Shown here: positions 33,481-41,492 of the stretch, piece after piece
How positions within the stretch are numbered: position 1 is the stretch's first letter
How the letters are laid out: the number at the start of each line of letters is the position of its first letter
Assembly: GCA_001899085.1 (NCBI GenBank)
Contig: MKVB01000004.1
Coordinates: 100,553-164,552, forward strand
Direction: 5' to 3'
Source: Devosia sp. 66-14
GTDB lineage: Bacteria > Pseudomonadota > Alphaproteobacteria > Rhizobiales > Devosiaceae
DNA: 64,000 bases
Translations under genes and position numbers: made by a program
Notes under the pieces: generated by a model
What the model was told of the DNA's origin: nothing
Seen by the model: only the letters and a program-made list of their open reading frames with translations
Database searches by the model: none

Positions 33481-33632
33481 CACCGGCCGTCATCCCGACG
33501 AAAGTCGGGACCCACTGCTCGGAGTGCGGGTAAGCAATGGCCGCGCCGACCATCACAGCAGGGTCGGCGCGATCGCATTTGGGCAACCGCCAGTGCACTG
33601 GGTCCCGACTTTCGTCGGGATGACGGCCGGTG
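33481..33632. repeat. paired-palindrome element R2
   Basis: A perfect 34-base inverted repeat, 33481-33514 against 33599-33632, with an 84-base loop. Each arm includes the hairpin GTCCCGACTTTCGTCGGGA. It has the same architecture as R1 with compensatory base changes. It lies at the 3' end of the uronate-dehydrogenase-like gene. Confidence 0.88.
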
Positions 33633-33950: not shown

Positions 33951-34020
33951 ACATAAAAGTTTGACACCATATGACGGGCTATGGTTCCCTAAAGTGATGA
34001 GGGGCAGGGGAACCACAGAC

Positions 34021-34782
34021 ATGGCGACCGAAGCTGCGGAGATCGCGCAGGCGCTGGCCGAGCAGATTCATTCCGGTGCGATCCGCTCCGGCGAGATGAT
34101 CCCGTCTGAGCGCGACCTGTGTGAGCGCTTCGCTGTCGGGCGTACCGTGGTGCGCGAGGCCATCACCATGCTCGAGGGCATGAAGCTGATCGAGCAGCGC
34201 AAAGGCTTCCGTCCCCGTGTGGTCACTCCGACGCTGGCCCAGGCCATGGCCGGCGCGGCCGAGGCGGCCCGGTTCTTCTTTCGCGGCAGCGAGGGCAATG
34301 CGCATCTGGAGCAGGCCCGCTTCTTTCTCGAAATGAGCCTCGTGCGCTATGCCGCGCAGTTCGCCACGCAGGCGCAGCTGGGCAAGATGCTGGCCGCCAT
34401 CGAGGCCTGCGAGCGCGCCATCGGCAGCTACCCGCAGTTCCGCGAGGCGGACCTGCGTTTCCATCGCACCATTGCCGAGGTGCCGGGCAACCCGATTTTC
34501 GTCGCCCTGCACGATGCGTTCGTCGATCGCCTGATGCGCCGCCGCGAGGCGCCGGTCGATGTCGCCACCCATAATCGGCGCAGCAATGACGAGCACCGCG
34601 CCATCGTCACCGCGCTTGTCGCCCGCGACGAGCAGGAGGCGGTCAGGGTGCTGACCGTCCACCTGTCGCGCAACTACGCCACCTACATGCGCCAGGCCCT
34701 TACCGGCACTGAAGCCCTTATCGGCACCGAAGCGCTTGTCGGCACTGAACCACGTGCGGCCGTTTCCAACTCGGAGGGATGA
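34021..34782 (+). CDS. FadR/FCD-type GntR transcriptional regulator
   Basis: A 253-residue protein starting at ATG 34021. The N-terminal winged helix (LAEQIHSGAIRSGEMIPSER, VGRTVVREAITMLEGMKLIE) is followed by an FCD ligand domain with metal-type residues in ADLRFHRTIAE and the final SNDEHRAIVTAL. These regulators respond to sugar acids or organic acids and usually repress. The C-terminus carries three near-identical 6-residue units (TGTEAL, IGTEAL, VGTEPR) encoded by 18-base tandem repeats at 34702-34755. It is the first gene of the ABC/lyase operon. Confidence 0.88.
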   Translation: MATEAAEIAQALAEQIHSGAIRSGEMIPSERDLCERFAVGRTVVREAITMLEGMKLIEQRKGFRPRVVTPTLAQAMAGAAEAARFFFRGSEGNAHLEQARFFLEMSLVRYAAQFATQAQLGKMLAAIEACERAIGSYPQFREADLRFHRTIAEVPGNPIFVALHDAFVDRLMRRREAPVDVATHNRRSNDEHRAIVTALVARDEQEAVRVLTVHLSRNYATYMRQALTGTEALIGTEALVGTEPRAAVSNSEG

Positions 34783-34859: not shown

Positions 34860-36482
34860 ATGAAGAAATTGCTGGCACTTGGCATGGCGCTGCTCATGTC
34901 GACCTCGGCGATCGGCACCGCTGCCGCGCAGGCCACCAACAACAATCCGCTTTCGGACGTGCGCGTCCGCCAGGCCCTGGCCTATGCCATCGACATGCAG
35001 ACCATCATCGACACCATCTTCGATGGCAACGCCATCAAGGCGGTCGGCATGCTCCCCAACGGCCCGTTCAAGAACCCGGACCTGAACCCCTACGACTACG
35101 ACCCGGACAAGGCCCGCGAACTGCTGAAGGAAGCCGGCTGGGATTCCAACCGTACGCTCGAGATGGTCTACTATTATGACGACCAGATCACCGCCAACCT
35201 GATGCAGGCGCTGCAGGCCTATTTCGCCGATGTCGGCGTCAACATGAATGCCCGCCTCTTGACCGGCGACGTCGCCAAGACGCTCGGCGCCATCCCGCCC
35301 AACCCGACCGACAAGTCGCTGGTCTCCTGGGATCTCGGCTATGGCGCCCGCGCTGCCATCGTCATGCAGGAATACTACAACGACTACGCCACCGGCAAAG
35401 CCAGCTCCGACCAGTTCCCGGGCACCCCCGAGATGGATGCTGCGATCGCCGCGACCAATGCCAGCACCGATCCGCAGAAGCAGAAGGAAGCCTTCTTCGC
35501 CATCGAAAAGCTGATGAACGACAACGTCTACACCATCCCGCTCTACTACCAGAAGCTCTACACGGTGGAGAGCGACCGGCTGAACCGCAACGGCGCCCCC
35601 TATGGCAACGAGCAGTTCAACTACAACTGGGACATCCAGAACTGGACGGTCGAAGCTGACGCATCCGGCAAGCACGTGTTCTACACCAACGGCGCGCCGG
35701 TCGATTACTTCGAGCATCCGTGGGCCAATCTGGGCCTGTGGGTCGGCAACCGCTTCGTCTTCGATCGCCTGCTGTTCGCCAACCCGACCATGACCGGCGT
35801 TGCCGGCGGCGACCTCGCCGAGACCTACACCATCAGCGATGACGGCAAGACCGTGACGCTGACGCTGCGCGACAACATCAAATGGCACGATGGCGAGCCG
35901 ATCACCGTCGACGACGTCACCTGGAGCTTCGAGGCGGCGCTGTTCGTGCCGAACCTGCACGGCGTGGTGGGCAAGACCCTCAACTCGCTGGAAGGCGCGG
36001 CCGACTATGTGGCCAAGAAAGCCGAGCACATCTCGGGCATTTCGACCGAAGGCAACACCATCACACTGAAGTTCGCGACGCTCGACCCGAACGTCCTGAT
36101 CTCGCTCAGCCAGTTCGCGCCGCTGCCCAAGAAGTACTTCGAGGGCACCGATCCGACCGTGCTGCAGCAGAATGCCTTCTGGCAGAAGCCGGTCGGTTCC
36201 GGCCCGTTCAAGGTCGATACCGTCGCCTTCGGTGACTACGCCTCGCTGCTGCCGTTCGACGATTACTTCCTCGGCAAGCCCAAGATCGACCAGGTGGTGG
36301 CCTTCGCCAGCGCCGACGGCGACGTCAACATGGTCAAGAACGCTGCGGCCAACCGCATCGACTTCGCCATCACCAAGGTGACCAGCGACGTGAAGGCGCT
36401 CGAAGAGATGCCGCACATGAAGCTGACGCCGATGGATATCCCCTACACCCGCATGATGTGGATCAACACTTACGACAAGTAA
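34860..36482 (+). CDS. circularly permuted family-5 substrate-binding protein of an ABC importer
   Basis: A 540-residue exported protein (signal peptide KKLLALGMALLMSTSAIGTA, cleavage after AQA at about 25). After cleavage comes the part that normally ends SBP_bac_5 proteins: NNNPLSDVRVRQALAYAID (27-45), NPYDYDPDKARELLKEAGW (76-94), EYYNDY and IPLYYQKLYTVESDRL (to about 264). Then follows the part that normally begins them: FVFDRLLFANPT (299-310), ETYTISDDGKTVTLTLRDNI, KWHDGEPITVDDV (341-353), VGSGPFKVD (445-453), ending MMWINTYDK. Joining residue 540 to residue 26 restores the usual order. It feeds the permeases encoded downstream. Confidence 0.88.
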   Translation: MKKLLALGMALLMSTSAIGTAAAQATNNNPLSDVRVRQALAYAIDMQTIIDTIFDGNAIKAVGMLPNGPFKNPDLNPYDYDPDKARELLKEAGWDSNRTLEMVYYYDDQITANLMQALQAYFADVGVNMNARLLTGDVAKTLGAIPPNPTDKSLVSWDLGYGARAAIVMQEYYNDYATGKASSDQFPGTPEMDAAIAATNASTDPQKQKEAFFAIEKLMNDNVYTIPLYYQKLYTVESDRLNRNGAPYGNEQFNYNWDIQNWTVEADASGKHVFYTNGAPVDYFEHPWANLGLWVGNRFVFDRLLFANPTMTGVAGGDLAETYTISDDGKTVTLTLRDNIKWHDGEPITVDDVTWSFEAALFVPNLHGVVGKTLNSLEGAADYVAKKAEHISGISTEGNTITLKFATLDPNVLISLSQFAPLPKKYFEGTDPTVLQQNAFWQKPVGSGPFKVDTVAFGDYASLLPFDDYFLGKPKIDQVVAFASADGDVNMVKNAAANRIDFAITKVTSDVKALEEMPHMKLTPMDIPYTRMMWINTYDK

Positions 36483-36568: not shown

Positions 36569-37531
36569 GTGCTAGCCTACGTCATCAGGCGCGTTCTGAT
36601 CATGATCCCGATGGCCGTCGCCATCAGTTTCCTGGTCTATGTCGGTCTCGACGCGACCCCCGGCGACGCCGTGTCCTTCATGCTGAGCCCCGAGCAGATG
36701 TCGGGCGCCAATCCCGAACGTCTCGAAGAGTTGCGCGAGGCGCTCGGCCTCAACCAGCCGCTGTTCGTTCGCTATTTCATCTGGCTCGGGGGGCTGTTGC
36801 AGGGCAATTTCGGCTACACCCTCACCGGTGGCGTGCCGATCTCCGACCTGTTGGCGCGGCGCCTGCCCGCGACGCTGGAACTCGCTGCCGTGGCGCTGGT
36901 GCTCTCGACCGTTTTCGGCTCGATCCTCGGCATCATCAGCGCGCTCCGCCGCGGCACCGCCACCGACAACACGTTGACCGTGGTCGGCATGGTCGGTGTT
37001 TCCATCCCTGAATTCTTCTTCGGCCTCGTCGCCATCACCGTGTTCGCGCTGAACCTCGGCTGGCTCCCGGTCGGCGGCCGCTCGATGCCGCAATACGTCA
37101 CCTTCTGGGATCGGCTGCCGCACCTGGTGATGCCGGCGCTGGTGCTGTCGATCATGATGACGGCGGGTGTCATGCGCTATGCGCGCGCCGCCATGCTCGA
37201 CGCGCTGAACAAGGATTTCATCAAGACCGCCCGCTCCAAGGGCCTGCCCGAATGGCGGGTCAACCTGCTGCACGGCTTTCGCGTCGCGCTCACTCCCGTG
37301 GTCGTGCTGATCGGCTTCCGCCTGCCGGCGCTGATCGGCGGCTCGGTGATCGTCGAGCAGGTGTTCCAGTGGCCCGGCGTCGGCAGCCTGTTCGTCCTCT
37401 CGGTGCGCAACCAGGATTATCCGGTGGTGATGGCCATCGCGCTGATCTCGGTGGTCACGGTGCTGGTGGTCAGCGTGGTCATCGACGTGCTCACCGCCAT
37501 CATCGATCCACGCGTCCGGTTGGGGAACTAG
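36569..37531 (+). CDS. ABC transporter permease, DppB/OppB type
   Basis: A 320-residue membrane protein starting at GTG with AAGGAAA upstream. The N-terminus YVIRRVLIMIPMAVAISFLVYVG and the NPERLEELREALGLNQPLF loop are typical of the first permease of the peptide/oligosaccharide family, followed by six membrane segments and the EAA loop DFIKTARSKGLPEWRVNLLHG that contacts the ATPases. It imports the ligand delivered by the permuted binding protein. Confidence 0.92.
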   Translation: MLAYVIRRVLIMIPMAVAISFLVYVGLDATPGDAVSFMLSPEQMSGANPERLEELREALGLNQPLFVRYFIWLGGLLQGNFGYTLTGGVPISDLLARRLPATLELAAVALVLSTVFGSILGIISALRRGTATDNTLTVVGMVGVSIPEFFFGLVAITVFALNLGWLPVGGRSMPQYVTFWDRLPHLVMPALVLSIMMTAGVMRYARAAMLDALNKDFIKTARSKGLPEWRVNLLHGFRVALTPVVVLIGFRLPALIGGSVIVEQVFQWPGVGSLFVLSVRNQDYPVVMAIALISVVTVLVVSVVIDVLTAIIDPRVRLGN

Positions 37532-37533
37532 CC

Positions 37534-38469
37534 ATGGCCCTTGCCGATATCCCGCGCCGCCGCACCCGTTTCGACCGTCGCTTCGATCGTATCCGCGCCC
37601 TCGAGGAAGCCGGCCGCCTGAAGCATCCGACCGGCAGCCGGCTGGTCCGCAAGTTCATGAGCAACCGACTGGCGGTGATCGGGCTGGTGGTGTTTTCCAT
37701 CATCCTCCTCGCCGCGATCTTCGCGCCGCTGCTGACGCCGTGGGACCCGACCAAGATCAACCTGCGCGCCATGCTGCAGCCACCCTCCTGGGAGCATTGG
37801 TTCGGCACCGACAAGACCGGGCGCGACGTGTTTGCCCGCGTGCTCTATGGCGGCCGCATCTCCATTCTCGTCGGGCTCGGCAGCGCCGTGGTCTCGGCCA
37901 TTATCGGAGTGATCATCGGCTGCTACGCCGGCTATGTCGGCGGCTGGTTCGATGCCGTCTGCATGCGCATCTCCGAAATCATCATGGCCTTCCCCGAGCT
38001 GATCCTGGTGCTGATGCTGGTCTCGATCCTCGGCCAGTCGCTCAGCAACATCATGATCATCTTCATCCTCGGCGGCTGGTGCGGCATCTATCGCCTGGCC
38101 CGCGCCAGCATGCTGTCGCTGCGCGAGGAGGAGTATGTGCAGGCGCTGCGGAGCTTCGGGCTCTCCGTGCCGCTGATCTGCTTCAAGCACATCCTGCCCA
38201 ATGCGCTTGGGCCCATCATGGTCAACATCACGCTGTCGACCGCCGCCTTCATCCTCGCCGAAGCGGGTCTCAGCTTCCTCGGCCTCGGCGTGCCGATGAA
38301 CATCGCCACCTGGGGCAACATCCTCAATGTCGCGCAGGACCTCGGCGTGCTGCAGAACAACTGGTGGATCTGGCTGCCGGTGGGCACGACGATTTCGCTC
38401 TTCGTCCTCAGCGTCAATTTCATCGGCGACGGCCTCCGCGACGCCACCGACCCGACGCAGCAGGGCTGA
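37534..38469 (+). CDS. ABC transporter permease, DppC/OppC type
   Basis: A 311-residue membrane protein. The OppC N-terminal segment (FMSNRLAVIGLVVFSIILLAAIFAPLL) is followed by the conserved HWFGTDKTGRDVFARVLYGGRISI and the EAA loop YVQALRSFGLSVPLICFKHILPNALGP. It starts 3 bases after the previous stop and forms the membrane channel with the DppB-type partner. Confidence 0.92.
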   Translation: MALADIPRRRTRFDRRFDRIRALEEAGRLKHPTGSRLVRKFMSNRLAVIGLVVFSIILLAAIFAPLLTPWDPTKINLRAMLQPPSWEHWFGTDKTGRDVFARVLYGGRISILVGLGSAVVSAIIGVIIGCYAGYVGGWFDAVCMRISEIIMAFPELILVLMLVSILGQSLSNIMIIFILGGWCGIYRLARASMLSLREEEYVQALRSFGLSVPLICFKHILPNALGPIMVNITLSTAAFILAEAGLSFLGLGVPMNIATWGNILNVAQDLGVLQNNWWIWLPVGTTISLFVLSVNFIGDGLRDATDPTQQG

Positions 38470-38474
38470 CCCAG

Positions 38475-39492
38475 ATGACCACTACCACTCAGCTGCCGGT
38501 CGATGACGTCGCGCTCAGCGTGCGTGACCTGAAGACCTTCTTTTACACCAACAAGCGCTGCAACAAGGCGGTGAACGGCGTCTCGTTCGAGATCCGGAAG
38601 GGCAAGACCCTCTGCATCGTCGGCGAGAGCGGCTGCGGCAAATCCGTGACCGCCTCGGCGATCATGCAGTTGCTGCCGACGCTGTCGCGCATCGAGGAAG
38701 GCGAGATCGTCTATCACTCGGAACGCGGCGACATCCGGCTCGATACGCTCGCGCGCAACGGCAGGGCCATGCGCTCGATCCGTGGCTCCGAGATCGCCAT
38801 GATCTTCCAGGATCCGATGACGGCGCTGAACCCGGTCTTCACCATCGGCTTCCAGATCGTCGAGAACCTCCGCTACCACACCGCGATGCGCGGCCGGCAG
38901 CTCATGGACAAAGCCATCGACCTGCTGCGCTCGATGGGCATTCCGGCGCCCGAGCGGCGGGTCGAGCAGTTCCCGCACCAGTTCTCGGGCGGCATGCGCC
39001 AGCGCGCCATGATCGCCATGGCCATGGCCTGCAACCCGAAAATCCTGATTGCCGACGAGCCGACCACGGCGCTCGACGTCACCATCCAGGCGCAGATCTT
39101 CGAGCTGATGGCGACGCTGAAGCGCGACCACGGCACCGCCATCATGCTGATTACCCACGACATGGGCGTGGTGGCCGAACTCGCCGACGATGTTGCCGTC
39201 ATGTACATGGGCAACATCGTCGAGGCCGGCACCGTCGACGAGGTGCTGCGCCGGCCCAGCCACCCCTATACCTGGGCGCTGCTCGATTCCGTGCCGGTGC
39301 TGGGCCGCGGCAAGAACCAGGATATCCGCGCCATTCCGGGGTCGACCCCTGATCCGTTCAACCGGCCAACGGGCTGCCAGTTTGCCGATCGCTGCGTCTA
39401 CAAGCTCGATGCCTGCGAGCTTGCCCTGCCGGCCGAAACCCACCTGTCCCCCACGCATCGCGTCAGGTGCGTGCGCCACGAGGAGTTCGCCA

Positions 39493-39509
<17 letters not shown>
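38475..39509 (+). CDS. ABC transporter ATP-binding protein, DppD/OppD type
   Basis: A 344-residue ATPase; the start is ATG 38475. Walker A GESGCGKS is at 50-57, the Q-loop in [12 protein letters not shown], the signature [19 protein letters not shown], Walker [14 protein letters not shown], and the C-terminal oligopeptide-transporter extension with the Cys cluster [15 protein letters not shown] (an iron-sulfur-type motif in some homologues). It overlaps the next ATPase gene by 17 bases. Confidence 0.93.
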
Positions 39510-40533
<1,024 letters not shown>

Positions 40534-40565: not shown

Positions 40566-41492
40566 ATGCCCGCCTTCGACATCAAATCCATCACCGGCGT
40601 TCTTCCGGCGATGGTGACCCCGTTCGACGAAGACGAGAAGCTCGACGAGAAGCGCTTGCGCGCCGTCGTCAACTTCCTCATCGAGCGCAAGGTCGAGGGG
40701 CTCTACATCACCGGCTCGACCGGCGAGTCCTTCCTGATGTCGCCCGAGGAGCGCAAGCGCGTCGTCGAAGTGACCATGCAGGAGAACCGTGGCCGCGTCC
40801 CGGTGATCGCCCATATCGGTGCCATCAGCACCTTCCACTCGATCGACCTGGCCCAGCATGCCGAGCGAACCGGCGTCGACGCCATCTCCTCGGTGCCGCC
40901 GATCTACTGGGGGTTTTCCGCCGACCAGATCCACGGCTACTACGCCGACATCACCAGATCGACCAAGCTGCCGATGATTGCCTATAACGTGCCGATGGCG
41001 GCGCTCGGCTTCGACATGATCAAGCGGCTCTCGAGTATCGATGGCGTCGCCGGGGTCAAGTACACCGCCACCACCCATCACGACATCATCCGGATCAAGG
41101 AAGAGATCGGGCAGGATTTCATCGTCTATTCCGGCGCCGACGAGATGGCCATGTCGGGCCTGAGCTTCGGCGCCGACGGCATTATCGGCTCGTTCTACAA
41201 CTCGATGCCCGAGATCTGGATGGCGCTGCGCGATGCGGTCGCGGCCGGCGACCTCAAGGAGGCCAAGCGCCTGCAGGAGATCGGCAATGCCGTGATCTTC
41301 TTCTCGCTCGGTCGCGGCGGCATACCCTCGATCAAGCGCGCCATGGCCTGGATGGGGTGCGACGCCGGCTATGTCCGCAAACCGCTGGGCGGCTTCATCG
41401 ACCAGGCGGCCGACGACAAGCTGAAGGCCGAGTTCCGCGGGCTGCGCGACGAGCGCAAGCTCAAGGGCGTCGCCTTCCTCGACGCGCTCTGA
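40566..41492 (+). CDS. N-acetylneuraminate lyase-like DHDPS-family enzyme
   Basis: A 308-residue TIM-barrel class I aldolase. GLYITGSTGESFLMSPEER (45-63), IAHIGAISTFHS, the catalytic Tyr140 in MIAYNVP and Schiff-base Lys165 in GVKYTATTHHD line up with E. coli NanA (Tyr137, Lys165). It should cleave a 2-keto-3-deoxy sugar acid to pyruvate and an aldose. NanA specificity is suggested by the GSTGE-S-F context, but keto-deoxy-glucarate or other lyases of the family remain possible. Confidence 0.75.
   Translation: MPAFDIKSITGVLPAMVTPFDEDEKLDEKRLRAVVNFLIERKVEGLYITGSTGESFLMSPEERKRVVEVTMQENRGRVPVIAHIGAISTFHSIDLAQHAERTGVDAISSVPPIYWGFSADQIHGYYADITRSTKLPMIAYNVPMAALGFDMIKRLSSIDGVAGVKYTATTHHDIIRIKEEIGQDFIVYSGADEMAMSGLSFGADGIIGSFYNSMPEIWMALRDAVAAGDLKEAKRLQEIGNAVIFFSLGRGGIPSIKRAMAWMGCDAGYVRKPLGGFIDQAADDKLKAEFRGLRDERKLKGVAFLDAL

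Follow-up and report, generated by a model that had tools for sequence, protein, structure and literature searches.

The window, as the whole stretch of 64,000 nucleotides of Devosia sp. 66-14 analysed here is called, contains a gene encoding a substrate-binding protein (SBP) of family 5 (cluster C, OppA/DppA-like) whose chain is very probably a genuine, inherited circular permutation. This gene (34860-36482, + strand) shows an open reading frame (ORF) of 540 aa with an ATG at 34860 and a stop codon at 36482, the length and coordinates given by an earlier, sequence-only reading of this DNA. Its frame is open upstream as far as 34779, and the start at 34860 is common to the close orthologues. 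Apart from its permuted chain, the product is most likely an ordinary importer subunit of the Venus-flytrap type. The gene, its parts and its neighbours are distributed as follows:

34003..34782, + strand: GntR/FCD regulator, directly upstream of the SBP gene (start estimated)
34860..36482, + strand: family-5 (SBP_bac_5) SBP of 540 aa, very probably circularly permuted (from the ORF and the profile matches)
34860..34934, + strand: signal peptide, residues 1-25, with a type I-like AQA end (assigned by eye; low pLDDT in the model)
34935..35651, + strand: normal C-terminal module, residues 26-264, comprising the larger part of lobe 2 and the final lobe-1 strands
35643..35672, + strand: new fusion turn, about residues 262-271, from the old C-terminus to the old N-terminus (from the junction table)
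35652..36479, + strand: normal N-terminal module, residues 265-540, with lobe 1, the first hinge and the first lobe-2 strand
36569..37531, + strand: DppB-type permease
37564..38469, + strand: DppC-type permease (start estimated)
38478..39509, + strand: DppD-type ATPase (start estimated)
39490..40533, + strand: DppF-type ATPase (start estimated; within a longer open frame; used as the DppF query)
40566..41492, + strand: DapA/N-acetylneuraminate-lyase family enzyme, next to the transporter

Order of the modules and position of the new termini

The window protein shows two matches to PF00496 (SBP_bac_5), first to profile positions 207-327 and then to 4-209, which meet at the swap point. This is the arrangement that had been read from the sequence, with the C-terminal module after the signal peptide and the N-terminal module second, and the two out-of-order partial matches are those predicted for an HMM check. 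In hmmscan the protein reaches 211.5 bits against SBP_bac_5 in two stretches, the best one between residues 317-538 and profile positions 4-209; it passes the curated cut-off (32.4) and is thus a homologue of the family-5 SBPs. Since no single in-order SBP_bac_5 match runs along it, the homology is that of a permuted chain and not of a colinear family member. The limits proposed for the C-terminal module (26-264) hold as well, as the module runs beyond the motif ESDRLNRNG (residues 237-245) to about residue 264. Inverted pieces were also found against known structures: chain residues 61-216 and 266-379 of Lmo0135 (PDB 5isu) match query residues 318-486 and 27-137, respectively, and the pieces of DppA of entry 8z1z are inverted too. 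In a profile search of the PDB, the best stretch covers one module only in each of 60 chains (the best 60 of 87). The source genome, a draft of 13 contigs, contains more than 30 family-5 SBP genes and shows 36 PF00496 matches, 32 of them single; the pair in the window is the only out-of-order pair. Two further matches, on contig 8 (G000:C8:7251-8577), belong to another SBP_bac_5 gene, which has the normal order and is split over two frames, owing either to a frameshift in this copy or to an error of sequencing.

Hinge residues 286-287 and 507-508 are given for MppA in the available part of the source (PMC6022919), and on this basis they map, within a few residues, to residues 524-525 and 233-234 of the window protein. 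The protein begins just ahead of the first lobe-2 helix and ends about 15 residues past the first hinge, on the first lobe-2 strand, so that by the MppA mapping the chain still crosses at both hinges and has its two new ends in lobe 2. A short turn connects the old termini; it is alike among the permuted groups and differs in length. The chain would therefore start just past the first lobe-2 strand, run through lobe 2, cross the second hinge into lobe 1, pass the new turn between the old termini, finish lobe 1, cross the first hinge and end on the first lobe-2 strand. Such a chain would take the usual bilobed shape, close on its ligand as a Venus flytrap and deliver it to DppBCDF.

The model of the permuted protein (pLDDT 77.4, pTM 0.71) was obtained from a shallow alignment of 19 rows. 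In a Foldseek search of the PDB, the 50 matches listed for it are by name SBPs of the Opp/Dpp/Nik/AccA kind, with alignments of 228-286 columns, about half the length; such short alignments should be expected of a permuted chain in an order-dependent aligner. The weak model of a canonical Hungatella orthologue (pLDDT 70.3, pTM 0.55) aligns over 480-605 columns with the same kind of proteins, with an rmsd of 8.7-11.7 Å to the matches listed. The accuracy of the two models allows no finer reading. In canonical relatives such as L036, the strand and the helix that flank the new termini are joined by a loop, and the predicted model of L036 has one long strand and then a helix where the permuted chain is cut.

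The circular permutation proposed from the sequence is supported by three results: the Pfam order, the unpermuted orthologues in which a short loop joins the two ends, and the agreement between the two modules in their pairwise distances (Mantel r 0.964, p 0.001, 48 rows). The last of these also bears on a chimaeric origin, by which modules from different SBP genes would have been fused in an unusual order. The same architecture would result if neighbouring SBP genes were fused, the genome offers many family-5 genes for it, and the two module trees disagree on one point, a single permuted clade being present in the N-module tree and absent from the C-module tree. However, each of the four groups (alphaproteobacterial, spirochaete A, spirochaete B and canonical) is monophyletic in the two module trees, and the N and C modules diverged together, which disfavours a mixed origin and makes the chimaera improbable. 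If two copies of the same gene had fused, the result would be indistinguishable from permutation by duplication. A route by tandem duplication with loss of the outer halves is plausible for the circular permutation. Among the repeat families shown near the gene (20 of 51 direct and 25 of 35 inverted) there is no second SBP module, and diverged copies would escape this search. The same region contains an inverted repeat (33481-33518 and 33595-33632) with 38-nt arms, 97% complementary and 76 nt apart, which sits between an epimerase-like gene and the regulator and resembles a dispersed palindromic element. Three tandem 18-nt units (34696-34749), 83-100% alike to the reference, lie within the GntR regulator gene, at its 3' end.

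Operon, putative substrate and selection

The window SBP is encoded together with permeases and ATPases of the OppB/C/D/F type. The SBP-DppB-C-D-F set is found together in 36 of 40 loci, with permuted or canonical SBP alike, and the other four loci (L034, L145, L150 and L153) reach a contig end. As L042 and L157 are the same place, the 40 operon loci represent 39 places. The operon order was taken from the positions of the open frames; in L032 the DppC frame opens ahead of the DppB frame. The DapA-family enzyme next to the transporter comes closest to N-acetylneuraminate lyase, with 258.4 bits, which is below the NCBIfam cut-off of 281. Upstream, on the opposite strand, there are genes encoding an HpcH/HpaI aldolase, an SDR enzyme (labelled from sequence) and a GFO/IDH enzyme; the aldolase (112.2, cut-off 368.8) and the GFO/IDH enzyme (117, cut-off 355) are far under the NCBIfam cut-offs. 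Downstream there is an enzyme of the L-lactate dehydrogenase (FMN) subfamily (398.9 bits, cut-off 376). These neighbours, with their sugar-acid type enzymes and the lyase of the N-acetylneuraminate-lyase family, weakly suggest that the substrate may be an acidic sugar or a 2-keto-3-deoxy-acid precursor.

The permuted gene is under purifying selection, with dN/dS values of 0.068, 0.056 and 0.117 in comparisons with three close relatives. A degenerate gene that has lost its function and persists by chance would fit the three of 43 copies which are broken or split, one frameshifted (G138), one truncated (G029) and one in two pieces (G025), and a fourth copy, of G057, which has no normal in-frame signal peptide. 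The remaining copies keep both modules in one frame, and the low dN/dS values (0.056-0.117) and the conserved operon also speak against degeneration, which is thus highly improbable. The rearrangement is real and inherited and, as far as the sequences indicate, probably functional.

Distribution of the permuted form and of its unpermuted orthologues

Genomes of the family, the order and the spirochaetes were searched with a profile (A1) built from 11 permuted proteins, and the searched genomes were grouped by genus, family and order according to their kinship to the centre genome. In the larger searches, the top 3-10 candidates per genome were scored under strict E-value limits, and absences are therefore soft. 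Both modules were found permuted in one frame in 40 genomes, 28 of the window's order and 12 spirochaetes, the order being checked protein by protein. Within the genus, where Devosia-like genomes had been proposed for a search, nine of 19 genomes show the same order with 61-100% identity, and among them G004, assembled in one contig, reaches 98%. Within the family, both modules are permuted in one frame in 24 of 136 genomes, including these nine; two more family genomes contain a truncated copy (G029) and a copy in two pieces on two contigs (G025). The order-wide search matched six of 397 genomes: four are new and outside the family, and two are family genomes already counted. The spirochaete carriers comprise 10 of 139 genomes of a Sphaerochaetaceae-type family (the family of G136, the genome of a Sphaerochaetaceae MAG), and the search of Spirochaetota matched three of 247 genomes, two of them new permuted carriers and one already counted. 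Named carriers include Devosia sp. Root413D1, Devosia insulae and Sphaerochaeta sp. S2. In G253 the start of the gene is cut by a contig end. The permuted gene of G057 (L088, G057:C1:353523-355052) has an in-frame start without a normal signal peptide, which may be due to an upstream frameshift, a wrong start or a non-secreted copy.

The single permuted gene noticed from the sequence is therefore real, and it belongs to a subfamily with many members instead of standing alone. Since the swapped version occurs in dozens of bacteria of at least two phyla, it is real and inherited and no sequencing error. An artefact of assembly or annotation, such as a collapsed tandem pair of canonical genes, was conceivable while the gene came from one draft genome of 13 contigs. 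It is refuted, and hardly credible any longer, by the independent genomes in which the permuted order and a similar length are kept down to about 39-44% module identity, six of the carriers being assembled in one contig (G004, G057, G073, G088, G116 and G117).

Outside these groups, a sample of the window's phylum showed one match in 299 genomes, the window's own genome, so the protein seems uncommon outside the window's order. A search of 394 genomes gave two matches: a canonical one (G453) and a permuted gene with a frameshift in an Oscillospiraceae MAG (G138, L042:5830-7544), the only Firmicutes carrier found. A third phylum is represented by this one frameshifted MAG gene, which could be contamination. 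A search of eight genomes showed single in-order matches among the matches listed. In the plasmid records listed (40 of 1877), the best places are 26-31% identical and in two pieces, with no close copy. A scan of viral contigs gave 16 pattern matches with no relative among them, and Foldseek against viral models gave no match at E <= 0.001. A phage-labelled candidate with a single long match (H43/L161) was rejected, as it is a canonical SBP whose match runs beyond its stop codon. An archaeal candidate for a second permutant (L067) was also rejected, as it has the N-C order plus an extra N half. This Pyrodictiaceae contig (L067:1-2217, +) shows a family-5 SBP cut by the contig end, then a second N-terminal half in the same frame, followed by a sub-threshold Ig-like match and a hydrophobic end. 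In this unrelated lineage, the N-C-N layout looks like an intermediate stage in permutation by duplication.

The unpermuted orthologues whose search had been proposed were found in Firmicutes: nine distinct ones with the normal order, belonging to Hungatella, Anaerobium, Lachnospiraceae, a Holdemania MAG and other Firmicutes. Their identity with the window protein is 39-46% for the N module and 47-51% for the C module. Those of Hungatella, Anaerobium, Lachnospiraceae and Holdemania (L035-L041) lie at 40-46% and 47-51%, respectively, and have the same DppBCDF operon as the permuted form and, unlike the window protein, the normal N-to-C order. In the family of G139 (Hungatella), five of 250 genomes matched, all of them canonical. 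No canonical orthologue was found beside a permuted copy in one genome at the E-value limits used. The scattered distribution, together with the whole importer, suggests horizontal transfer.

Number of permutation events and relation to known binding proteins

Trees were made without identical proteins and without the truncated L096. The SBP tree contains 57 rows (39 permuted, nine canonical, L047 and eight outgroups; the frameshifted L042 was left out), the DppBCDF tree 36 loci (25 permuted, seven canonical and four outgroups) and the combined tree 33 loci (25 permuted, seven canonical and L047). In all three, the canonical clade comes to lie between two permuted groups. One is spirochaete A, joined in the DppBCDF and combined trees by the Oscillospiraceae copy, and the other is spirochaete B with the alphaproteobacteria. 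This topology is what would be seen after repeated changes of the chain order at one and the same loop next to a hinge, either by two independent permutations, one in each permuted group, or by one permutation and a later reversion in the Firmicutes clade. However, the support of the deciding branches is weak to moderate (95/83 in the SBP tree, 71/44 in the DppBCDF tree, 76/81 and 76/61 in the combined analysis). A single permuted clade is not rejected by the AU test (p 0.119 for SBP, 0.261 for DppBCDF, 0.198 for the combined data and 0.334 for SBP with L047 as the only outgroup), it appears in the N-module tree, and the permuted groups share a similar fusion turn. A repeated change is therefore possible and somewhat doubtful. 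If true, chain topology would be a trait that evolution can reverse within a single family of orthologous transporters.

The canonical cluster C SBPs (DppA, OppA and MppA; PF00496) are homologous to the window protein over both modules and belong to the same kind of DppBCDF operon. Their termini lie in lobe 1, whereas in the window protein the order is swapped and the mapping puts the two termini in lobe 2. An older concept along these lines is that of 'domain dislocation' between other types of SBP fold. The permuted SBP as a wider idea is already known from TpMglB-2 (Tp0684) of Treponema pallidum, which the available text of its report describes as a crystallised natural circular permutant of a cluster B SBP, with 'cluster Bc' as the proposed name, and with relatives in spirochaetes and Gram-positives for which horizontal sharing was raised (PMC4990184). 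By that text, TpMglB-2 is likewise a naturally permuted SBP chain of an ABC importer, and its likeness to the window protein lies in the permuted chain only. It has the cluster B sugar-binding fold, in which three strands of one lobe have changed place and the hinge is crossed a fourth time, whereas in the window protein about half the chain is moved and, by the mapping, two crossings are kept. As far as the same text goes, the window form differs also in occurring in alphaproteobacteria and in having a soluble-type signal peptide (by eye). Among the listed sequence and model matches of the window protein, there is no cluster B sugar-binding family or structure. Among the papers listed in full-text searches of open-access literature (titles and abstract starts), there is no report of a permuted family-5 SBP, in agreement with the earlier statement that no described circular permutant was known in this family. 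In the accessible main text of a genome study on Devosia peptide transporters, the string 'permut' is absent (PMC6981132).

Colinear profile tools give two partial matches for such a protein, and other permutants may thus have been overlooked. The permuted SBPs and their unpermuted orthologues are encoded beside the same DppBCDF partners and show 43-57% mean identity per module (group means). They form a natural matched pair for asking whether folding, secretion, hinge motion and docking depend on where the termini lie.
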